From assembly GCA_003194525.1 (NCBI GenBank), contig NBIV01000080.1:1-64000 (forward strand): 64,000 bases of DNA, in the 5' to 3' direction. The stretch's first letter is position 1. Each line of letters begins with the position of its first letter. This DNA comes from Gracilariopsis chorda. Its lineage: Eukaryota > Rhodophyta > Florideophyceae > Gracilariales > Gracilariaceae. Positions 1 to 64,000 of this stretch are shown piece by piece. Position numbers and translations under genes: made by a program. The notes under the pieces are model-generated. The model worked only from the letters and a program-made list of their open reading frames with translations, had not been told where the DNA came from and made no database searches.

Positions 1-540
1 ACCAGTGAGTTACCGTCAACGACGGAGATGACCCATGATACGGGAACAGAAGATCCCGTTCTATACGGTGGTAACAGTCGGGTTCAACCCCAACGACTCC
101 CGTTTTCAAACGGTCAATCCCGTTATCAACGGCCTGGATGGACTGACACCCGCCCTGCGGTTCGCTTCTCGATACTCGGAATAATAATCCGCGTGTCGCG
201 GTGCTGGCTCTCATTTGCCACCTGTGCTATGCCCATGGCCATACCTCTCCTCAGTGTATTTGTTCACTGAAGGATATGGCCAAGGTGGTGGCAAATTATG
301 AGGCCCTCACTCCAGAGGAGAAACGTTCCGTCCCGACGGCTTCCTACCTCCGTGCTAAAACGGACTTTTCTCACGCCCTACCACAGACCCCGCGTGCGCG
401 GCAAGCTTCATACACCCCGATTCGGAGATCACGCAACCATCCGTTGCAACCCCGCTTATGCGGATAGAAACCCCCGTCAACGGGATGAAGCACTCGTTGT
501 CGAGGAAACCAACCCACCGCCGAAGGCGGAAAACTAACTG
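1..540 (+). pseudogene. gag: Gag C-terminal part with CCHC zinc knuckle
   Basis: Positions 216-257 encode CHLCYAHGHTSPQC, a C-X2-C-X4-H-X4-C nucleocapsid zinc knuckle, which binds retroelement RNA during packaging. It is followed by a Gag-tail-like stretch with LTPEEKRSVP near 307-340. The capsid part would lie left of the window or upstream in other frames. Frames change around 200-300 and no single frame spans the region, so it is scored as broken. Six perfect mini-hairpins lie within the first 160 bases alone. Confidence 0.75.
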
Positions 541-669
541 AGGGAGTCTCCCCTTTGGGAGAGGCGTCCTCAAAAACGAGGCTGTTGGCGCCCGAGGCGT
601 CCTCGCCTCGCTCCCCGGTGAAAGTCCTCTCGAGGAAAGACACCGCTGACGCGGACTCTGCGCACCTCG

Positions 670-1643
670 GTGTGTTGCGTCGCCCGTGGATACGGAGTAA
701 AAAATCCCCGGATTCCCGGTAGAGTCTTGGTCTTGGCCAAGCGCAATTATAAGGTCTATGCCGACCTTGGCCTTGACCCCCAGTTTATGGTGAGGTTTCT
801 CACCGTCCTGGATACAGGTGCAGGGCCCCAACTTTGTCGTGGATCATTGTTACCCCCGCTTGTGCGGTCGCGTATCCGCTCTGACGCGGTCCCGACATTT
901 CGGATGCGAACAACAATCCGTTACAAACGGTGGGCACAGTGGACCTCGTCGTGAGAACTTGTACATCTGTGGTGAAGTTGGACTTCATCGTTTGCCGTTC
1001 ACTGGCAGCACCAGTCATACTGGGATGTGATTACTGCGACAGATTTGTCGACGCAATCAGGCCCCGCCTCAGGCGTGTAGAACTTGACGACGGATCGTCG
1101 GTTCCGATTGTTCGCCCGCCCGCTAAAGCGGTCCTCTCGGAAACAAGTTCCGCTCCCTGCTGCGCAGGAACCACCGCCCGCGTCCCGCGAGTCACCAAGC
1201 TCCGCGTCGCTGCCTCGGTTTCTATACCGGCTGAGTCCCAAGTCTGGGTACAGGTAAATTCCCGTCAACACGGTCTTCGGGTTATACAACCCCTCGCCTC
1301 GTTGTACGAGAAATCCCAGCTGGCGCTGGCTAATGGAATTGTCTCCATTTCCCCGGATGTTCCTTTCCGGATATTGGTTGCCAACCTTGGCAAACACCCC
1401 CAGTATCTGGTCAAACACCAAGTAATTGGGAGTGTAACCCCCCATCCTATGGGAATGCTGCCAACGAAGATGACAGCCGCCGATGTACTCGGAGTTACCA
1501 CCTCTTCTGAGGAGTTCACCCCGCCGTCCGAAGACGTCAAGCCTAAGGAGGGGAGGAAACCGCTACTTCAGCGTCGAACATACCGAGTAACTCGAATTGC
1601 GAACCACACCTGTTCCACAGGACAATGCTCCATCGAGCAATGA
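670..1643 (+). pseudogene. Retroviral-type aspartic protease region, frameshifted
   Basis: The catalytic triad D-T-G in VLDTGAGPQLC is encoded at 811-819. The second half of the fold (flap and the hydrophobic-Gly ILG motif in APVILGCDYC) continues in a different frame from about 930, so at least one frameshift falls near 930-954. The protease would cleave the Gag-Pol polyprotein. From about 1100 to 1640 the frame stays open through a linker that leads towards RT without a recognisable domain. The split frame means this copy cannot make an intact protease. Confidence 0.8.
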
Positions 1644-1742
1644 CCGGATTGATCCGGAAAAAGCACTTGAAGCGCTGGACTTCAGCCACGTGCCAGAGTC
1701 GCACCGCGACAAACTCCGTACTATGTTACGGAATTCACCACA

Positions 1743-2372
1743 ATGTGGGATGGCTCGCTTGGCGAGATTGATGCAACGGAACACCGGATCGATTTAATCC
1801 CCGGTGCGCGACCGGTTGCACAACCCCTTACAGGGCAAGGTCCGAAAGCTCGGGAAGAGGAGCAGTCCCAGGTGGACAAGATGCTCCGCGCAGGTGTGAT
1901 TGAGCCCGCTCAATCGCCCTGGGCATCCCCAGTTTTACTGGCTTTAAAGGCTGACGGAACCTGGAGGTTCTGTGTCGACTACCGCCGGCTCAATGCCGTG
2001 ACTGTTAGGGACACGTACCCCATCCCCGTATGGACGAGTGCATTGACTCCCTTGGAGACGCCACCAGTGTTCACGGCCCTTGATGCCAATTGGGGATATT
2101 GGCAAGTACCTGTCAGACAGGAGGATCGCGACAAAACCGCATTCACCTGCCATGCAGGAACGTACCGCTTCAAGCGGATGCCATTTGGGTTAACCAACGC
2201 CCCCGCCACCTTTCAGCGTGCAGTAGATATTCTACTCAACCGCTTTAAGTGGCGGAGTTGTCTGGTCTACCTTGATGATATTATCATCTTCTCCAACTCG
2301 TTGGACGACCATCTCACTCACGTCCGAGACGTGCTGACCGTACTCCGTCATGCGGGAATTACCCTCAAGTGA
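1743..2372 (+). pseudogene. pol: Reverse transcriptase domain of the chromovirus
   Basis: This frame holds the RT palm and fingers: the entry motif with VIEPAQSPWASPVLL, the FCVDYRRLNAVT motif, the FKRMPFGLTNAPATFQ motif, and the YLDDIIIF active-site box with the catalytic Asp pair at about 2271-2282. These are characteristic of Ty3/gypsy RTs. The domain is open along its length, but the frame changes at its 5' side (after 1643) and at 2369-2372, where the thumb and RNase H continue in another frame. A perfect 7-bp hairpin (2274-2288) overlies the catalytic box and another (1899-1914) lies at the entry motif. Confidence 0.9.
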
Positions 2373-3123
2373 GGAAATGCGAGTTTTTCACAGATACTGT
2401 GAAGTATCTGAGTCACATTATCCGTCCTGGACGGTTAGCGATCGAGAAAGCTCGAGTCAAATCCCTCGTTGAGGCGAAAGACCCCGTACTCAAACGGAAC
2501 TGCGCTCCTTTCTGGGGCTGGTCAACGTCTATCGACGGTTTATCCCGAACTTTTCGGATAATGCAGCGCCCCTGAACGCGTTGTTGCGAAAGGGGAACCC
2601 CCCAAAACTGGGAACATTTACGCCCGAGCAATCGGAAAGCTTTTAACTCCTTAAAGGAGGCTGTCACATCAGCACCAATCCTACATCTCCCAAAACTTGG
2701 GTTGCCATACTCCGTAGATACGGACTCGAGCGACTACCAAGTCGGGTGTGCTCTTTTTCAACCACCCCGAGGGGAACGACATCCAATTGGTTATTGGTCA
2801 CGTTCGCTCAATGTTCATGAGCGGAACTACTCCGTATCGGAGAAAGAGTGCCTCGCGTCGTATGGGCGATGACCACTCTGCGCCCTACCTTATGGGAATT
2901 CACTTCACGTGTACACGGATCATTCCTCATTGAGGTGGTTGATGAATATCTCCGACCGTCGGGACGCCTCATGCGCTGGAGACTCCGCCTCGCGGAATAT
3001 GAATTTCAAGTCATTTATAAAAAGGGTGCGCAGAACACTCAGGCCGACGCTTTATCGCGGTTACCCACAAGTGGGGAAGCACTCCAACGGAGGATGATGA
3101 AGTCCCATGCTTCATGGCTATAG
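2369..3123 (+). pseudogene. pol: RT thumb/connection and RNase H, frameshifted
   Basis: The first part (2369-2470) encodes KCEFF, the usual start of the Ty3 RT thumb. RNase H follows from about 2700 with VDTDSSDYQVGCALFQ, including the first catalytic Asp, and continues in another frame to the family's typical end: EYEFQVIYKKGAQNTQADAL near 2998-3050. RNase H removes the RNA template during reverse transcription. At least three frame changes (near 2575, 2750-2850 and 3123) break the reading frame. Confidence 0.82.
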
Positions 3124-3129
3124 ACCCGG

Positions 3130-4440
3130 ATGATCCGGAACATGCCGTCGAGGCTAGGCCAGAAACCTGGGACGAGGATGCTGATTTTGACGAACTACTC
3201 GCATCGCGAGATAAATCTGAGAACCCGTTACGGGAAACTTTGTACCGGTATCACCGGAAGAAATGATCCGAGAACAATTCGGCGACCCATTCTGTACGAG
3301 AATTCGTGCCCGTATCAACGGTGGTGAAGATCTCCCTTTCGGGGTAAACGACAAAGGCTACCTCGTAAGAAAGGTCGAAGCCCGCCCACAGATTGTGGTA
3401 CCACATTCCCTGCAATCGCGGGTGTTACATCTATCACACTACGCCCCATTGGAGGTCACCCAGGTGGGAGGAAACTCTACCTAACCCTGCGAAGGGATTT
3501 CTATTGGCCCGCAATGGCGGTGGATTGCTACGCAACTGTGCGGTTTTGTAGCGAATGCGCGAAGAATCGCGTCAAACTCCGCAAAAATGCGAAGAAGATG
3601 AAACTATTCCCCGCAAGGGCGCCGCTCGAGTTTATTGCGATCGATATTCTCGGACCATTACTCACCACGAAACGTGGAAACAAGTTTCTACTTGTCATTA
3701 CCGACCGCTTTTCTAAGCTGGTACGGACTGTCCCTCTTCGGAGGATAACCGCTCTCACGGTGGCCCAGGCTCTGGTGACGCACTGGATTTTTGTCTACGG
3801 TCCCCCTGTAGAGGTGCTCTCTGACAACGGGAAGCAGTTCGTGAGCAAGTTCTTCCAGGATGTTTGTCGCATCCTGGAATGTCAAGAACTTGTTCACGAC
3901 TACCTACCACCCCCAGTGTAATGGGCAAGTTGAACGGTTTAACCGGACGTTACTCGCGGCGTTACGTTCCTACGTCGCTGACCACCCAGCGGATTGGGAT
4001 CTCTACGCTGATGCGGTAACCTACGCGTACAATACGCAGGTACACCGGACTACCGGAGTTTCGCCATTCGAGTTAGTTCTATCTAGAACACCCCGCCTGT
4101 GGCGCTGGAACCCCAAGCTACCTTGGACAATTTCCCATCTGTGGGTATCTACCGGCAGCAATGGAAGCGATGGCTTTCCAAGCTGGTCCCGCTGCGCGGA
4201 AGTCTATGGCACGGGCCCAAGCCGCTTACAAGCGGGATTTTGACGCTCGCGTGCGAGGAAAACCATCCCGATTCGCGCAAATAACTACGTCTTCATCAGG
4301 AAGGAATACTACAACCCGGAACGGGAGAAGCGTCACAAACTCTCACCTGTGGCGGATGGACCCTTCAAGGTGATCTCTGTTAACACCGACACTGTCGTGG
4401 TAGAGATGGGGACACGCACGAACGGATTTCCCGTGATCGT
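3130..4440 (+). pseudogene. pol: Integrase with HHCC finger, DDE core and GPY/F module, frameshifted
   Basis: An HHCC zinc finger is visible as LHLSHYA (about 3424) and FCSECAKNR (3544-3570). The catalytic core has IAIDILGP (first Asp, about 3640), LSDNGKQF (second Asp, about 3820) and CNGQVERFNRTLL (Glu, about 3920-3955); the last lies in a different frame from the first two. The GPY/F module appears as KLSPVADGPFKVISV at about 4340-4385 in a third frame. Integrase inserts the element cDNA into host DNA. The broken frame rules out activity from this copy. Confidence 0.88.
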
Positions 4441-6095
4441 GTTGTCCTCGCCCCTCCTCCCTCGTCAGAGGTAGTCCTGGATCCAGGCAACCCCGTTTCC
4501 ACGGACTCCGCTACACCGGAACAATCCGGGAGTACTAGACCTACGGTACTACCACACCCCAGCCGGGGACTCTTAGACCTACCGACTCTGTCGGACTCAC
4601 CGGCTCAGCCGGGTAATTCGGGCCCCTCAGCGCCCGCCCCTACCACGTCTGCCCCACTGGCGCGCATCTATACCCGCCAGGCGGGGAATGTTATCCCTTA
4701 TCCCGCCGCTCCGTCTAAGGAGGGGGAGGAGAACACTCGTTTTCGAGGAACGATATCACCGTCGCAACGGGAAACACACCGTAACATACGGAACACTGAC
4801 CGTGGAGCACGGAGTATGTCACGCGACACTAATCCCCCGTTCCCGAGCAGTGCTGTGCAACAGGAACCAGACGCGCAGGCCCCGCAAAAGCGGCAAATAC
4901 ACCGTTTGTCACGGGAAAACGAGAAGCCTCACTCCAATACCGCAGCAGCGGAAAGGCAATCGCCCGATGCCTCGAAGCCGCCGTTGGCGGAAGTCCCCGC
5001 GGAAGCGGTTCAATCAGGTCGATCAGACCCGCGCCCTGCGGAGAAGGGCGCCCAGATACGCCGGCCTCACAGGGAATACCCACACCCCTCTTGGGGAAAA
5101 AGGCGGCCAAGCTGCAATCGAAGCTTTAAGCCCTGGCTCGCAAGCACCGGAAACGCCTCCCGTCGTTGACGGAATCAAAGCCCCCGCTACGGGAATAATT
5201 TGCGCCGACCCCCGCATCGCTGCGGCGAAGAACCGAGGAACTCGGGAATAACGCGCGCCATCGCACGCTCGAAACCGGTCGTACCGGACGCTGCTCCTCC
5301 TCACGGAGATGGTGCACTGCGCTCAGCGGCAATTCCCTGAAAAGGGTGTCATCGGCACCTGCCCGGAACCCCCCAGAGGGGAATTTTGACCAAAATACCG
5401 GTGTACCGGAGTTAGCCCCAGGCAACCCGTCAGTAGCCGGGGACACCACGGCATCGCCGGAACGTATGGTGCAGAGCGCTCGTGCGCCTGGCAGGGAGGC
5501 GGTTTGCCACCCAATCACCGTGTCGCACGGGACCCCCCAGGGGATTGTGGAAATGCCGATCCCGCAGGAGCGGTCATCTTCCCGCAAACTCGCGGTTCGT
5601 GCGCTCAACCGCGAAGGCGGAACCCAAGTCCCCCGCCGACTGGCGGTTCGCCCGGCCTACCGTGAAGACGGAAACAACGACACCCCTCTGGGGAACGACT
5701 TGCCGGTGAAAACCGTGGCACCACACACCCTCTTGAGGGATATTTTCCCGCATGAGCAGCGGCCACTAGGACAGCGCACGGCAACGTCGGAGTTATCGCC
5801 GAACACCCTGCTAAGGGACATTATACCGCACCGCGGGCAACCCTCGCCAGGGATTACAACCACCACCCGGCACGGCCGGCAGGTCTACGAACGAGAGTTC
5901 GTAGTAGACCGACTTGTCGGACACACCTGGGACCAGGATGGTATTCTACAATACCGCGTCCGCTGGTACGGGTACGACCCCAGTGGGGATACGTGGGAGC
6001 CAATGGAACACCTCCCACGGTCGCAGGTCGTGCGATACCACCGTCAAACGGGAACTGCAGCTCCAGCCACGCTGGTAAATGCCCAAGTTGGGTAA
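4441..6095 (+). pseudogene. Long proline-rich linker and terminal chromodomain
   Basis: The last 50-60 codons before 6055 form a chromodomain: FVVDRLVGHTW, then LQYRVRWYGYDP, then TWEPMEHL, with the aromatic positions expected for methyl-lysine reading. Chromoviruses use this module to target integration to marked chromatin. About 1.4 kb separates it from the integrase GPY/F module, far longer than the short tail I would expect. The linker is Pro/Arg/Thr-rich, changes frame and is saturated with short hairpins, so its protein sequence may be secondary to its RNA or DNA structure. The final open frame is 5346-6095. Confidence 0.83.
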
Positions 6096-6230
6096 CGTTG
6101 CCGCGCGAGCGGAGAGCGAAAGGAAAGGATAACAAGACAAGGTCCGTCGAAGACGGGGAACTCAACCGAGAAGCACCGTTCTAAACGGAAAGTTTATTCA
6201 AGGGAGCAGCTAGCTCCCCACAATACTACA

Positions 6231-8072
6231 CTACACTAACTGGCATAGCCAGAGAAAGAAGAACCAGGAAACTGGACTAGAGGTTTCACTCACCCCCATC
6301 GTCCGGGGCGTAACCCCCAGCAAGGCGGTAGGCCAACGCGTCCGCCATGGTGGTGACATCCCCGATACCTCGGCAGCGCTAAGACCGGCACCCCGGAGGA
6401 AACGTGCGATGATTTCGTTTTCATTCGCCGTCACCCCGCTGGGGATAGAAGGTCCGGCACTTGCCGTTGAAGGGTCAGCAGCCGGCTCGGCCGGAGATAC
6501 CCCCTCTGGGAAAGCTTCCGCGCTAGCGCCGGTTTCCTCTACGTCCATCTCCCCGGGTTCTTCCGGTTCGTTATCGACCATTGGGTCATCCCCGCCGTAT
6601 GCGCGGTAGTAGTCGTCAGAATCGACGTACCCCACCGGGTGGTCTTCCGGCACATGCCGGGGCGTATCGCGAAGCTCTCGCGCCTCCTCGGAGGAAATTT
6701 CCCGGAACTCCCAGGGGTCGAAGTAGATAAAGTCCCCCGCAAGGGCGGTGTTTCTACCGAGTCCCGGACCACCGGTGTTACCGCTGCCGCCATCCAGACG
6801 ACCGCTTTGCTCCAGCGGGACCTCACTCCAGCTAACGCTGTCGATGTACCCAAGTAATTGGAGGACCTCTTCATTGTTGGCCTGGCCCCCAAGGGGGATG
6901 CGAAGATCCAGGTTTCGGATCGCTGCCCGCACACGCGGTTGAAGGAACCAGAGACGATACTGGTCGTACGCCTCGTTGAGGATATAAGCCGCACTGCGGG
7001 CCGCCCACTCCGTAACCACTACGGACCACAACCCCGACCGGGGATCCTGCATGAGCAGCGAACCGAGGTACGTAAGTACCGGCGGGAGTTCTATGTAGCA
7101 CCCCCGGCAGGCGTCATGGAAGCGCCACCACTCGGGGAGTGCTACATACCGACCTAGTCGGTGAGGCGGCGCAATCCGCTCTATCTCCACGTTCTGATAC
7201 GGGATAAAGTACCCGAATCGGGATCGCCAACGCCGCTCGTAGCGGATGAAGTTTTGGAGAAAGTTGGACCGGTATTGCCGGGGAAGGTACCTGAACTCCG
7301 CCCGAATAATCGGTCGCTCCCAGCAAAGGGCCTCTTGCCGCGCTGCGGGGAAATTCCTCCAAGCGAGGGTCTCGAGGCGGAACAGGTTCTCGCCGTACCC
7401 AATCTCCCCGCGAGTGCGGAAGTAGCTAACGTCGAAGCCAAACTCCGGTGGGACCGGTACATCGAATGGAGCCCGGCTCTGCCGTTGGTACGCCATCCGC
7501 GTCAACGCGGTCTGCGCCGCAGCGACGGTCTCGCCCGAGTTTCTTCGGAGGTGGTGACGCGGAATCGCAATCCGGTGACGCCAATCCCACGATGTGGTGA
7601 CTGCTCTGGGCAGATCCCCCGGAAGGGTGTCTGAACCATCCGCATAAGCGGTGACCAACCCCTCATTGAGGACAGCGACCGGGTGAAACCACGGGGCAAG
7701 GCGCAGGCGCGACGCGTGATTCCGATTCATCGGGTTGAGCCCCACCAGGGTGTTGTAGGTTGGCCAGTTGGACACCGGAGTGGTTCCGGAGGACACCACC
7801 GAAGGTGGTAGTGCGAAGGGATGGTCGGCTGCAGCAGCCATATTCCCCGGTTGTACCGGATTTCGATCGCCCTGAGGCAGGGGAACTGACCGGAAACCGG
7901 TGGTGTACCGCCCGAGAAGTCTCGGCGGTTGGCTGTGGCTGTTGATATGGTTGTCGTCGTTCATTTGTCCCTTTTGGAGGGTGGCTGTTGTTGTCGTTTG
8001 TGTGCTTGATGACTCTGGCGCAGAGGGATTTACCGGAGAACCGGAGACAAAGCACGCGCTTTTATCACCCAT
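6231..8072 (-). CDS. Intact 613-aa antisense ORF of the chromovirus, function unknown
   Basis: A continuous frame runs antisense to the element from ATG at 8072 to TAG at 6231, inside the internal region between chromodomain and polypurine tract. I do not recognise the family. The N-terminal 90 residues are Thr/Ser/Pro/Gln-rich. A central Trp/Arg/Tyr-rich block (about 110-420) looks folded. The C-terminal third is acidic (DVEETG, DSDDYY) and ends with hydrophobic VSWFFFLWLCQLV. It is open while every sense domain is broken, which suggests that it is younger, retained or under selection. Extra antisense ORFs are known between pol and the 3' LTR in some plant Ty3 elements, but I see no sequence link. 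The same hairpin carpet covers it, so it belongs to the element. Confidence 0.6.
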   Translation of the reverse strand: MGDKSACFVSGSPVNPSAPESSSTQTTTTATLQKGQMNDDNHINSHSQPPRLLGRYTTGFRSVPLPQGDRNPVQPGNMAAAADHPFALPPSVVSSGTTPVSNWPTYNTLVGLNPMNRNHASRLRLAPWFHPVAVLNEGLVTAYADGSDTLPGDLPRAVTTSWDWRHRIAIPRHHLRRNSGETVAAAQTALTRMAYQRQSRAPFDVPVPPEFGFDVSYFRTRGEIGYGENLFRLETLAWRNFPAARQEALCWERPIIRAEFRYLPRQYRSNFLQNFIRYERRWRSRFGYFIPYQNVEIERIAPPHRLGRYVALPEWWRFHDACRGCYIELPPVLTYLGSLLMQDPRSGLWSVVVTEWAARSAAYILNEAYDQYRLWFLQPRVRAAIRNLDLRIPLGGQANNEEVLQLLGYIDSVSWSEVPLEQSGRLDGGSGNTGGPGLGRNTALAGDFIYFDPWEFREISSEEARELRDTPRHVPEDHPVGYVDSDDYYRAYGGDDPMVDNEPEEPGEMDVEETGASAEAFPEGVSPAEPAADPSTASAGPSIPSGVTANENEIIARFLRGAGLSAAEVSGMSPPWRTRWPTALLGVTPRTMGVSETSSPVSWFFFLWLCQLV

Positions 8073-8116
8073 TTTCGTCTGGGAATCCTCCGCGCCCGCG
8101 GTCGTTTTCCCGTCTT

Positions 8117-8128
8117 AAGGGGGGGATA
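8117..8128 (+). promoter_or_regulatory. Polypurine tract (plus-strand primer)
   Basis: AAGGGGGGGA followed by TA abuts the TG that opens the LTR at 8129. A purine run directly before the 3' LTR is the standard primer for plus-strand DNA synthesis in LTR retrotransposons. It also fixes the element as plus-oriented and identifies 8129-8934 as the 3' LTR rather than a solo LTR. Confidence 0.85.
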
Positions 8129-8934
8129 TGAAGTGCAACGCCCTCAGGGAGGGATTCTGGGTACTTGAACGCTTTCCCGATATTATCGGTTGTGTAGTGT
8201 GTATATGAACTACGCCCCACAATGGTGGGTATGGACACGTGGGACACGGTTTTGGGTCAATTGGCGGTTGGCCACAGTAGTGGATGTTGCCACGGAATGT
8301 GGAGTATTTTAGTTAATTTTATTTATTATTTTCACACCCATTTCTGGGAAGCTAGTACTTAGTGCGACGGCGCACTGCCGTCGCACCAGTAAACCTTCCC
8401 CAACAAGGGACCCCAACCTGGGGAATTGGCTCTGAGCTTTACCGCCTCCGCGTGTTCTCAACTCCTCCTTGGAGGGAAGCACCGTAGTGTACGGAAGTTC
8501 ACCCCCTTGCACATCTAAAGGAGACCCATCATTGGGAGTACTAATTGTTCCAATCATATTGGTGTTTCGCCCTGTATAGGGAGTCCTGTCCACCGGCATT
8601 GCCGTATCTACTCGTCGCTCTCGCGACCCACTCGTCCTTCCTCTTTCCCCTTTTTAGGGTAGCACCTCCCGCTATCCGCGGCCCTCGTGTGCGCATCCGC
8701 TCACACACCCCCACTTACGTGGAAACATACCTCTACTGAGGATCACACCCCGCTCACGCGGATACCGATTCTTCGCCTTCACCTCCCTGCGCGAGTCGCG
8801 ACAGGTGTCCCTGGTCTTACAAACCGGCTTCGCCGTGACACCTCTGGGAGGGCTCTACCCAACTGGGTTCACCTCGTGAGAGGAAGATCCCGGACGTCTT
8901 TCGGTGTTTTTCCCCTTTGGGGCATTGCACCACA
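8129..8934 (+). repeat. 3' LTR of the chromovirus (806 bp)
   Basis: It begins TGAAGTGCAACGCCC and ends GGCATTGCACCACA, giving TG...CA termini with an imperfect inverted end (GTGCAAC / TTGCAC). Near-identical copies lie at 9536-10368 and 62594-63397. A 10-bp perfect stem, GTGCGACGGC with its complement around GCACT, occupies 8362-8386 and is kept in all three. The 3' half is rich in smaller hairpins, for example 8482-8494, 8525-8536 and 8594-8604. An AT-rich stretch at 8310-8330 might serve as a promoter or polyadenylation region, but that is a guess. Confidence 0.93.
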
Positions 8935-8939
8935 GTTTG

Positions 8940-9535
8940 CCCAGTCGTGAAAGATTCTTGTATCAACCCCCGGTGTTTTTCTTTGGTATAGGTGGCAAGG
9001 TGGCAGTTCGTCGTGAAGTGTTTCGTAGCTGCCTCTCTCCGATTTGCGGTAGTGAGCCTGTTTTCCCCAGAACAAAATGAACGGTTTGAGAGCTGACCCA
9101 TCAGCATAAATAACTGGCATTACCGTGACGCGATCTCCTGCTCCTTTGACTTTGCTCACTTTCTGAATCAAACGGCCCCTATGCTCCTTACTCCCAACTG
9201 ATTTCTTCCCGCTCCTCCCAAAAATCTTTCCGAACGACGCCCCTGATTCATCAATGTTGAACACCTGACTTCGATCTGTTATGCTGTACTTCTTCATCAA
9301 GGCATTAAGAATTGCTATAAAACGCCCAATATTCTCTGGGGTAACGGCAGCGACACGGTTGTACTCTATACCTTGGATTGGTTGATACTTCAATTTATGC
9401 CGTTCACAGAACAGCCGGACCCATTTCTCGGATGGACGGCCGTTCACGAAGCTGATTTCTTGTTGGCGGTGAAGTGGAATGGTCGAAATGAAATATGCGG
9501 CAAGGTCAAGGAGGCAGGTCTTTGCCAGAGGTGTG
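8940..9535 (-). pseudogene. pogo/Tigger-like DDE transposase, middle fragment
   Basis: The minus strand encodes the C-terminal part of a CENP-B-type DNA-binding region (NGRPSEKWVRLFCERH) and the start of a DDE_1 catalytic domain: FNIDESG with the first catalytic Asp, then a GAGDRVTVMPVIYADG block and FILFWGK. These are hallmarks of pogo/Tigger/Jerky transposases. The fragment begins at the solo LTR (9536) and is cut at 8939 by the chromovirus, so the second and third catalytic acids are absent from the window. Longer open frames through this region borrow LTR sequence at both ends and are not the original protein. Confidence 0.85.
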
Positions 9536-10368
9536 TGAAGTGCAACGCCCTCAGGGAGGGATTCCTGGTACTTGATCGTTTTCCCGATATTATCGGTTGT
9601 GTAGTGTGTATATGAAGTACGCCCCACAATGGTGGGTATGGACACGTGGGACACGGTTTTGGGTCAATTGGCCGTTGGCCACAGTAGTGGATGTTGCCAC
9701 GAAATGTGGAGTATTTTAGTTAATAATATTTATTATTTTCACACCCATTTCTGGGAAGCTAGTACTTAGTGCGACGGCGCACTGCCGTCGCACCAGTAAA
9801 CCTTCCCCAACAAGGGACCCCAACCTGGGGAGTTGGCTATAGTTGTTACCGCTTGCGCGCGTACTCTACTCCTCCTTGGAGGGAAACGCCGTAAACCACG
9901 GGACATCTAACCCCCTTGCACATCTAAAGAAGCCCATCCTTGGGAGTATAATTGTTCCAATCATATTGGTGTTTCGCCCTGTATAGGGAGTCCTGTCCAC
10001 CGGCATTGCCGTATCTGTTCGTCGCTCTCGCGACTCACATCGTCCTCTCTTCCTCCTCTTCGCCCTTACTTTTTCCCCTTTTTAGGGTAGCACCTCCCGC
10101 TATCCGCGGCCCTCGTGTGCGCATCCGCTAACACACCCCCACTTACGTTTACGTGGAAACATACCTCTACTGAGGATCAAACCCCGCTCACGCGGATACC
10201 GATTCTTCGCCTTCACCTCCCTGCGCGAGTGGCGACAGGTGTCCCTGGTCTTACAAACCGGCTTCGCCGTGACACCTCTGGGAGGGCTCTACCCAACTGG
10301 GTTCAACTCGTGAGAGGAAGATCCCGAACGTCTTTCGGTGTTTTTCACCTTCAGGGCATTGCACCACA
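9536..10368 (+). repeat. Solo LTR of the chromovirus family inserted in the transposase
   Basis: This 833-bp copy is flanked by perfect 5-bp duplications GTGTG at 9531-9535 and 10369-10373. Removing the LTR and one duplication joins the transposase halves in frame, giving MYANNNTPLAKTCLLDL on the minus strand. It has no adjoining internal region, so it is a solo LTR, normally left by LTR-LTR recombination. It is about 27 bp longer than the copy at 8129, with a T/C-rich insertion near 10050-10075 and a small one near 10148. Confidence 0.95.
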
Positions 10369-10660
10369 GTGTGTTGTTATTGGCGTACATTTGCACCATT
10401 TATACGATGTCACGTTCTTCATTGTCGGATAACACTTTTGGCCTGCCTGGTTTGTTCATTTTCAGACATATCTGTTCTGCGGATGTTGGTATGACATCGT
10501 TGGTTACGTTGAGCCATTTGATATAAGTATTTTGTATGCGATACCAAAGAATTCCATATTCCTCAGCAAATTGATGGTAAGAACTGCCATGTGTGAATCT
10601 TTCAAACAACGCCTTCTGAAACCATTGCTAGAGAGTGGGTGGACTGGAAGAAGAAGCCAT
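10369..10660 (-). pseudogene. pogo-like transposase, N-terminal fragment
   Basis: Reading leftwards from ATG at 10660, the frame encodes a helix-turn-helix of the Psq/CENP-B N type (FERFTHGSSYHQFAEEYGI, later NKPGRPKVLSDNEERDIV). It continues into the fragment at 8940-9535 once the solo LTR is removed. Two in-frame stops show that it is dead: TAG about ten codons after the start and TAA just after DIV. The element's own terminal repeats were not recognised on this side. Confidence 0.82.
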
Positions 10661-62593: not shown

Positions 62594-63397
62594 TGAAGTG
62601 CAACGCCCTCAGGCAGGGATTCTGGGTACTTGAACGCTTTCCCGATATTATCGGTTTTGTAGTGTGTATATGAACTACGCCCCACTATGGTGGATATGGA
62701 CACGTGGGACACGGTTTTGGGTCAATTGGCGGTTGGCCACAGTAGTGGATGTTGCCACGAAATGTGGAGTATTTTAGTTAATATTATTTATTATTTTCAC
62801 ACCCATTTCTGGGAAGCTAGTACTTAGTGCGACGGCGCACTGCCGTCGCACCAGTAAAACTTCCCCAACAAGGGACCCCAACCTGGGGAATTGGCTCTAG
62901 TTGTTGCCGCTTGCGCGCGTACTCTACTCCTCCTTGGAGGGAAACGCCGTAAACCACGGGACATCTAACCCCCTTGCACATCTAAAGGGACCCATCACTG
63001 GGAGTATAATTGTTCCAATTGCATTGGTGTTTCGCCCTGTATAGGGATATTGTTACCGGCATCGCCGTTCGTCCCCGTCGCTCTCGCGACTCACTTCGCC
63101 CTTCTTTTTCTCCTTTGTAGGGTAGCACCTCCCGCTATCCGCGGCCCTCGTGTGCGCATCCGCTCACACACCCCCACTTACGTGGAAACATACCTCTACT
63201 GAGGATCACACCCCGCTCACGCGGATACCGATTCTTCGCCTTCACCTCCCTGCGCGAGTCGCGACAGGTGTCCCTGGTCTTACAAACCGGCTTCGCCGTG
63301 ACACCTCTGGGAGGGCTCTACCCAACTGGGTTCACCTCGTGAGAGGAAGATCCCGAACGTCTTTCGGTGTTTTTCCCCTTTGGGGCATTACACCACA
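62594..63397 (+). repeat. Solo LTR of the chromovirus family inserted in copia RT
   Basis: 804 bp, matching 8129-8934 throughout, with TG...CA ends. The flanks are TTCTG (62589-62593) and GTCTG (63398-63402), a 5-bp target duplication with one mismatch. Removing it restores copia RT reading across the site on the minus strand (FIAKILGPEPHHILPKAR). The 10-bp stem of the family is kept at about 62827-62851. Confidence 0.93.
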
Positions 63398-64000
63398 GTC
63401 TGGGCCAAGAATCTTGGCGATGAATGTCTAGAGAAAGGGGAGTGGTCACATTCCTGGTTCTTTATTCACCAGTACCCAAGTCTTCCTATCGACAAGTACG
63501 TTATATTCCCGGTCGACTGCATCCTTCCACAATGGTATTCTCCGCGCTTCATCAAAGTTTCTAGGGATGCTGCCATCATCCCTGAGGTACTCGGAGCGCG
63601 TGTGAGAAACCATGCATAGAGCCAGTGCTGCATCGAAGTGTTCCTCGACAGTTTCTTGTCCGGCCATTTCTGCTTCGGAGCTTCTCCACGACGAGACGTC
63701 GATGAGGTCATGGATCGAAGGAAGCTGTTCCCTGGTGACCTTGAAGTCCCGTGCGCGTATAATGATGACCTTGCGCTCGGTGGGGACATAGATCCTATAA
63801 AGGGTGCGGTGACTCTGCATGCCGACGAAGTGTCCCGGTACTGCACGCGGGAGCAACTTCTTGTTTTTCGCAGTCTCCGGGCGATATATGAAAGCATGCC
63901 CGTGTTGTCCGAACTTGAGTAAGTTCGAGAAGTCCAGCTTCCTACCGAGCCATATGGTGTAAGGCACTTCCATCCCAACTCTGGAGCTGGGTAGGCGATT
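63398..64000 (-). pseudogene. pol: Ty1/copia integrase C terminus and RT N-terminal part, broken, runs off the window
   Basis: The minus strand gives VPYTIWLGRKLDFSNLLKFG and LLPRAVPGHFVGMQS, the end of copia integrase. The connector follows, then the RT lead-in FDEARRIPLWKDAVDREYNV and KTWVLVNKEPGM. In-frame stops TGA (63446-63448) and TAG (63425-63427) follow before the inserted LTR. The element continues to the right of the window. Confidence 0.9.

Follow-up and report, generated by a model that had tools for sequence, protein, structure and literature searches.

The window analysed here, the whole stretch of 64,000 nucleotides at positions 1 to 64,000 of contig NBIV01000080.1 from Gracilariopsis chorda, begins with a long terminal repeat (LTR) retrotransposon that is carpeted with short perfect hairpins in coding and non-coding sequence alike. 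Judged by its sequence, the element at 1-8934 belongs to a Ty3/Gypsy family, here called family 0, of which it is a degenerate copy; the family has long open frames elsewhere. A carrier protein of the host shares 85% identity with Gracilaria domingensis, 81% with Agarophyton chilense and 70% with Chondrus crispus, as befits a red alga of gracilariacean type. The parts of this copy, two further LTRs of the family and four example hairpins (arms in capitals, loops in lower case) are located as follows:

1..8128, plus strand: internal region of the family-0 Ty3/Gypsy copy, hairpin-carpeted and with broken frames; gag is truncated by the contig start; 92-97% identical to copy L073 in three aligned pieces
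1671..2372, plus strand: open frame with reverse transcriptase domain (PF00078, E 3.6e-27)
3328..3921, plus strand: open frame with integrase domains (PF00665, E 5.5e-11; PF17921, E 3.2e-09)
5199..6095, plus strand: open frame with a chromodomain at its end (PF00385, E 1.6e-10, frame residues 234-275)
6231..8114, minus strand: antisense gene of 627 amino acids (aa), hairpin-rich, supported by genome matches, a family-B relative and the codon control
8117..8128, plus strand: polypurine tract preceding the 3' LTR, read from the sequence
8129..8934, plus strand: 3' LTR (TG...CA), non-coding and hairpin-rich, delimited by repeat matches and its ends (4-bp arms with loops of 3-5 nt: 38 versus 9.4 in shuffles)
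9536..10370, plus strand: second family-0 LTR, hairpin-rich, 91% identical to 8129-8936
62594..63399, plus strand: third family-0 LTR, hairpin-rich, 94% identical to 8129-8936
120..132, plus strand: example hairpin CCGTT-atc-AACGG, gag region
2165..2177, plus strand: example hairpin CCGCTT-c-AAGCGG, reverse transcriptase domain (equivalent to a 5-bp stem with a loop of 3)
4779..4791, plus strand: example hairpin CCGTA-aca-TACGG
8482..8494, plus strand: example hairpin CCGTA-gtg-TACGG, LTR, retained with a different loop in an LTR of 71% identity

The intact family-0 copy L073 contains open frames of 723 aa (gag) and 1887 aa (pol). Its pol carries RVT_1 (488-646), RT_RNaseH (743-841) and rve (1049-1146) in one frame, an order which is the same in L075 and L076; the pol frame of the window copy, unlike that of L073, is broken. 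LTRs bounded by TG and CA, a primer-binding site and a polypurine tract are present in both L073 and the window, the latter lacking a 5' LTR. Two related families, A and B, possess pol sequences 61 and 63% identical to that of family 0, and the LTRs of family A (541 bp) are 100% identical to each other. Only in family 0 does pol end in a chromodomain, scored at E 1.6e-10 for the window copy and at 1.8e-9 for L073; Pfam gave none for L075 and L076 up to an E of 0.1. Copies were counted in an assembly of 91.3 Mb and 1081 contigs, with two counts that are lower bounds: a 141-bp hairpin-rich piece of the reverse transcriptase is identical in 40 of 40 scored genome matches, and at the protein level 150 of 150 scored matches reach an identity of 85% or more, with a longest open frame of 1887 aa. 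The two family-0 clades are mostly 93-100% identical, but identity drops to 75-84% from the integrase onward (window ~2900-5200 compared with L074), a pattern suggestive of recombination between subfamilies.

A preliminary description of this DNA had named short perfect inverted repeats across the element, and all 16 of the coordinates it gave are hairpins, the one at 1899-1914 lying inside an 8-bp stem at 1898-1915; the chance frequency it assumed, one per 200 bases, is likewise about right. Compared to dinucleotide shuffles, 4-bp arms in the window region 1-8930 are 3.67-, 3.75- and 3.01-fold enriched at loops of 3, 4 and 5 nt, an excess that is gone at loop 0 (0.79-fold) and from loop 9 on (about 1-fold). 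Stems of at least 5 bp with loops of 1-7 nt number 47, 37, 32 and 37 in the successive 2-kb bins of positions 1-8000, as opposed to 11.0, 10.1, 9.0 and 13.8 after shuffling. The remaining 28 bins of 2 kb in the window range from 0.1- to 2.3-fold, and both bins above 1.6-fold contain LTRs of the family. The boundary of the element is sharp, with 8 hairpins in 8737-8936, one in 8937-9136 and none in 9137-9336, and hairpins resume with the next LTR (7 in 9537-9736). The density amounts to about 330 hairpins of at least 4 bp per 9.4 kb. The excess over shuffles is real, although about 107 of the 296 hairpins in the window copy (at least 4 bp, loops 3-6) are expected by chance.

Codon choice had been said to be bent toward hairpins, and this is borne out by synonymous-codon shuffles, in which gag of L073 contains 41 five-bp stems versus 8.9 and pol 95 versus 21.1 (4.5-fold). 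The corresponding ratio is 2.6-3.0 in families A and B, and 2.9 and 2.6 in the antisense genes, with 22 five-bp stems versus 7.5 in the gene of the window. Host genes and copia elements are ordinary, as had been described: the same control gives 1.44-fold for SMC1, 1.35-fold for MTR4 (both named by the preliminary description), and 1.18-fold and 0.95-fold for two genes which we take to encode an ABC-type protein and a tRNA-synthetase-like protein, and no hairpin excess was found in copia stretches with GC contents of 0.51 and 0.49, the copia elements tested being L077 and the window copia. A property of the host genome as a whole or of LTR elements in general is ruled out among these four host genes, the two copia elements and the Gypsy element L078, and repeated insertion as the source of the hairpins is excluded by stem sequences that vary from hairpin to hairpin. 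It is true that the GC content of the element exceeds that of the surrounding sequence. Nevertheless, explanations by chance, by GC content, by biased codon use or by faulty assembly can be given practically no weight, being refuted by the dinucleotide and synonymous-codon shuffles, the copia stretch of GC 0.51 without excess, the 40 of 40 identical copies of the 141-bp stretch and the conservation tests described below.

The hairpins share a format, typically a Watson-Crick stem of 4-5 bp with two C-G pairs at or adjoining its base and a loop of 3-4 nt. Their total length is mostly 11-14 nt, with a weaker excess at 15-16 nt, and the linkers between them mostly measure 5-14 nt in family 0. Stems that start with CC and end with GG (the CC class) account for 171 of the 296 window hairpins with loops of 3-6, where 12-14 are expected, and CCG stem bases for 92 (5.4 expected); GG..CC stems are not notably enriched (29 versus 19.1 in family 0, 21 versus 16.8 in B). 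Within the CC class both inner pairs are Watson-Crick in 173 cases (14.2 expected), while versions with one mismatch are near chance except for A.C, which is about doubled (29 versus 14.0). The next pair outside the stem is avoided in this class, being complementary in 23 of 222 cases in family 0 (49 expected) and in 8 of 152 in family A (43 expected). A shared loop motif was not found, with GNRA in 8 of 79 tetraloops of family 0, 0 of 51 of A and 0 of 32 of B. The constant part is the stem base, not the loop, and the loops are diverse. Distances between hairpin centres cluster near 20, 42 and 63 nt in family 0, without clear peaks in A and B. A spacing score with bins picked post hoc beat 500 of 500 simulations in family 0, whereas a free-period test, albeit a crude statistic, lends no support to a 21-nt pitch (376 of 400 simulations reach the observed value), and a regular 21-nt spacing is not established.

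Contrary to the expectation that the excess would be confined to one family, it is also carried by families A and B and by a non-coding LTR element, L072, which was found in one of four 5-kb stretches chosen regardless of content. L072 has no frame longer than 178 aa; 8 of its 23 listed frames were compared with Pfam, none of them matching, and neither gag nor pol nor the antisense proteins known from families 0 and B have a counterpart in it. Directly after its LTR-like end lies the same primer-binding site as in families 0, A and B, which these four loci alone have among the loci examined, and a polypurine tract is situated near 4150. Its 4.1-kb interior holds 27 CCNN and 24 NCCN hairpins (4.0 each expected), its LTR-like part 4 and 6 (0.8 each). 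Since a non-coding element with the same primer-binding site carries the hairpins, the feature acts in cis, or belongs to the copied nucleic acid and not to a protein. In family B the C-G pairs tend to occupy stem positions two and three, and L072 uses both registers, which suggests a family-specific register or 'dialect', resting on one copy per family. L072 itself (G000 C19, ~286900-313600) is repeated in tandem, with at least six units of ~5046 bp, and diverged pieces of it (84-90%) are present on other contigs. No Rfam match was obtained for L072, L073 or L076. Among the non-carriers, the Gypsy element L078 (pol ~30% identical) is devoid of the CC format. In the Gypsy element L071 (pol ~40% identical), five-bp stems are in excess regardless of loop length (43 versus 20.6), at a CC-format count of 11 versus 8.4; this element is no clean negative control. 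The carpet is thus restricted to this clade among the elements tested, and scans of viral_contigs revealed no relatives outside the genome.

Several comparisons bear on whether the stems are conserved. At fourfold sites, the family-0 clades differ in 13 of 113 positions within stems and in 124 of 371 elsewhere (p 2.4e-6). In a non-coding LTR comparison, 4 of 258 stem positions and 39 of 437 spacer positions differ (p 3e-5), the other two LTR pairs being similar. Across the first 3 kb of 38 distinct family-0 copies, private changes occur alike in stems (46/532) and spacers (195/2238), while changes common to at least two copies are depleted in stems (5/532 versus 99/2238; p 0.0003, and 0.003 before removal of a duplicate copy, L008 being identical to L034). 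Because private changes are equal and shared changes depleted, ordinary mutation cold spots are ruled out. Hairpin positions are retained as well: between family-0 clades, 28 of 35 CC hairpins in the 78%-identical part coincide within 2 nt (2.9 expected by sliding), and in an LTR 71% identical to family 0, 14 of 30 positions persist (3.2 expected). Between families, at identities of 61% (0, A), 61% (0, B) and 64% (A, B), the coincidences amount to 29/98, 18/80 and 17/60 (5.5, 3.2 and 2.4 expected). Paired changes in stems, which the preliminary description had proposed as a mark of the feature, were indeed found. The family-0 clades differ by 11 double Watson-Crick changes, where 0.66 (stem rate) or 3.8 (spacer rate) are expected; counted from the side of the other clade there are 6 versus 1.3 or 3.4. 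When families are compared, 33-64% of the pairs in which both partners have changed are Watson-Crick, compared to 24-27% in slid controls, with the weakest value from A to 0. Read together, these sequence comparisons indicate that pairing is maintained by selection in family 0, and that the hairpins are selected at all is almost certain. The persistence of hairpins in spite of broken frames, which had been cited in this context, is correct for the window copy but of little weight, since that copy is a degenerate member of a family with long open frames elsewhere.

Two proteins encoded by these elements are of relevance here. The Gag proteins of families 0, A and B share a C-x2-C-x4-H-x4-C motif, presumably a zinc knuckle. 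The PF03732 Gag domain is found in 12 of 38 Gag relatives and was not detected by Pfam in the Gag of L073, L075 and L076 themselves. In all three, a serine-rich stretch is separated from the capsid part by a block of high conservation, KGRRHxGLKELKPTNxxYxKLLSYRYYRLED, for which no Pfam match above cut-off was obtained. The antisense gene (609-627 aa) sits between pol and the 3' LTR (window 6231-8114, minus strand; L076 8433-9899, minus strand). In the genome, 77 of 77 scored matches to it show an identity of 95% or more, most of them without stops, and its relative in family B, 43% identical, is likewise antisense; copy L073 is without most of the gene. Four relatives of the protein lie outside, two of them named Gracilariopsis chorda and Gracilaria domingensis, and no Pfam family was assigned to it above cut-off. 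Proteins related to Gag or to the antisense product occur in Gracilaria domingensis, Agarophyton chilense and other Gracilariaceae. A further open frame of 264 aa (8869-9663, minus strand), 'transposase-like' in the wording of the preliminary description, overlaps the LTR ends and spans the gap between two family-0 LTRs; it has no Pfam match at E up to 0.1.

With the existence of the hairpins, their format, their restriction to the clade among the elements tested, their presence in non-coding DNA and selection on pairing in family 0 established, we propose the following explanation. The Ty3/Gypsy clade comprising families 0, A and B and the non-coding partner carries a cis-acting feature of about 200 formatted mini-hairpins per element, which would act while the element is single-stranded nucleic acid. 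The loop optimum and the requirement for pairing point to a folded single strand as the form that is read, the oriented C-C/G-G stem base implies a reader, and the cover of the whole unit, including both coding strands and the non-coding element, suggests the genome as cargo. That the hairpins act on the replicating single strand is very probable, with RNA as the strand presumably read. Each would then be a weak contact on the genomic RNA, one of many, recognised by the Gag of the element itself with its capsid and zinc knuckle, and Gag would thereby select its RNA, coat it and condense it, together with that of non-coding partners. As reader, Gag is a candidate only, with somewhat less than an even chance of being the right one. 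Dispersed Gag recognition sites on genomic RNA are the best explanation overall, albeit a tentative one, to which we assign a probability slightly short of one half. Of the causes suggested previously, two still stand, namely that the structure of the genomic RNA is under selection and that the hairpins form a recognition code, and the fixed C-C/G-G stem base favors recognition. In a more far-reaching and rather doubtful version, the hairpin array with its family dialects might be a self/non-self code read by the own Gag, such that matching RNA or complementary DNA (cDNA), including that of partners without proteins, is packaged and copied and the whole sequence evolves under a structural code superimposed on the genetic code on both strands.

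A number of observations weigh against this explanation. When long-range pairing is allowed, RNA folding energies are just modestly below those of shuffles: 120-nt windows folded at full span give mean z-values of -1.32 (family 0), -0.74 (A) and -0.70 (B) compared to 0.32 and 0.04 for host sequence, and two pieces of 301 nt yield -1.47 and -3.97. G.T pairs are not enriched among hairpins with one mismatch on the plus strand (25 versus 23.2), and we initially read this as evidence against RNA. That reading was withdrawn after comparison with MS2, a folded RNA genome, which shows little enrichment too (G.T 1.24-fold, A.C 1.67-fold with the same counter), so that the wobble test is of low power. 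Outside family 0 the evidence for conservation is uneven. Shared changes in family A are too few (6, in 8 sequences) for the private/shared contrast, and those in family B are not fewer in stems (8/384 versus 39/2917; p 0.66, or 0.82 after dropping L060, a duplicate of the reference copy). Only two of the six between-family fourfold comparisons reach p <0.05 (0.027 and 0.002), the others lying at 0.09-0.18, and most hairpins do turn over when followed by alignment column: family A has 16 of the 114 family-0 hairpins paired, 23 gapped and 75 not paired. Finally, 4-bp stems of any sequence do extend outward in family 0 (137/325, 98.7 expected), and stems of at least 6 bp are in excess there (32 versus 10.8), which limits the boundedness of stems to the CC class.

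Among the alternatives, the hairpins may act in the single-stranded minus-strand cDNA, as sites for nucleocapsid, integrase or a host single-stranded-DNA-binding protein or as a protection of the cDNA. We consider this unlikely, but not negligibly so. Local folding excess in family 0 is at least as large with DNA parameters (z -2.7 on both strands, without strand asymmetry) as with RNA parameters (z -2.0), and the A.C excess among one-mismatch hairpins of the plus strand (55 versus 23.8) corresponds to G.T on the minus strand. However, the A.C count falls to 42 versus 23.8 with codon control, the antisense genes show no such excess, and full-span RNA folding leans slightly to the plus strand (-0.28, s.e. 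0.16, in family 0; -0.39, s.e. 0.19, for the antisense gene). The A.C excess may, moreover, come from mutation alone, as changes in family-0 spacers lean the same way: in an alignment of 39 family-0 sequences, which includes both L008 and L034 and was also used for single-arm mismatches, G>A plus T>C outnumber C>T plus A>G by 26 to 11 among changes common to 2-12 copies, and by 44 to 33 among private ones. A strand-biased mutation process during replication is possible. A shelter function, in which stems below the length that Dicer-type enzymes require shield the RNA against nucleases or RNA interference in the manner of the ordered structure of persistent viruses, would account for the even spread of hairpins over coding and non-coding parts of the whole unit, and for families A and B having mini-hairpins and not long duplexes (stems of at least 6 bp: 14 versus 9.8 and 12 versus 11.6). 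Yet it leaves the CC/GG stem base, its orientation and the conserved positions unexplained and sits poorly with the modest long-range folding gain, which makes it quite unlikely.

A further alternative is a mutational origin. Template switching of the reverse transcriptase in hairpins could copy one arm onto the other and perfect near-palindromes in each cycle, which is in line with strict Watson-Crick stems, loops of at least 3 nt, the lack of a clear strand preference and double changes above expectation. Stem conservation in replicating lineages but not among private mutations is predicted here as well, and a correction acting solely during reverse transcription would give the same private/shared pattern as selection. 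Nonetheless, we regard this process, and with it the snap-back correction invoked in the preliminary description, as very unlikely: it gives no reason for the CC base or for the avoided next pair in the CC class, mismatches in a single arm have propagated to 4-8 copies without being corrected, as with a CCGC stem in which four copies have the same pair broken, and conservation at fourfold sites implies that old stems persist and are not merely perfect. Reading by the host, or in double-stranded DNA, as a silencing mark or as a chromatin or methylation motif could draw on the frequent CCG/CGG-rich bases (CCG in 92 of 296 versus 5.4) and on a motif that is its own reverse complement. A reader of duplex DNA, though, would need neither the complementarity retained by the variable inner pairs nor the loop optimum, both of which fit a folded single strand, and a harmful mark would be lost; such a reading is highly improbable.

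Should recognition of the genomic RNA by Gag prove true, a second code would extend over protein-coding sequence, the antisense gene, LTRs and the non-coding partner, at about one hairpin per 28-36 nt. Recognition of self RNA by an LTR retrotransposon and the mobilisation of non-coding elements would become directly testable, and dispersed recognition sites, hundreds per genome, would be available whose covariation is readable from genomes alone. The hairpin format also provides a simple search signature for relatives.

How does this feature compare to known systems? For MS2 and other single-stranded RNA viruses, dispersed packaging signals have been proposed as repeated contacts with the coat protein, and the recognition motif of MS2 is reported to be situated in the apical loop and a bulge (PMC6281560). 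The likeness consists in many stem-loops over the genome, in coding and non-coding sequence and under selection here too. The differences are that loops vary freely here, that the constant part is the C-C/G-G stem base, that the carrier is an LTR retrotransposon and that the density is another. With the same counter, MS2 shows an excess over loops of 2-10 nt and in long stems (18 versus 3.2), whereas the elements described here do so at loops of about 3-5 nt; phiX174 shows no hairpin excess. Genome-scale ordered RNA structure of some RNA viruses bears a resemblance in the tendency of whole genomes to fold better than shuffled sequence, but the present elements carry short hairpins of one format at a modest long-range gain. 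With Ty3/Gypsy chromoviruses they have in common the LTRs, primer-binding site, polypurine tract, reverse transcriptase, RNase H and integrase, and in family 0 the chromodomain. They differ from them by the hairpin carpet and the antisense gene (families 0 and B), and L071 and L078, Gypsy elements of the same genome, are without the CC format. L072 may be likened to the large non-autonomous LTR elements of LARD type, on account of its LTR-like end, primer-binding site, polypurine tract and lack of any frame >178 aa; unlike them, it is as hairpin-rich as its coding relatives and forms a tandem array. In the open-access literature, judged mainly from abstracts, no earlier report of such hairpin carpets was found. 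In conclusion, the feature appears categorically new, and its mechanism may be a far relative of packaging signals.

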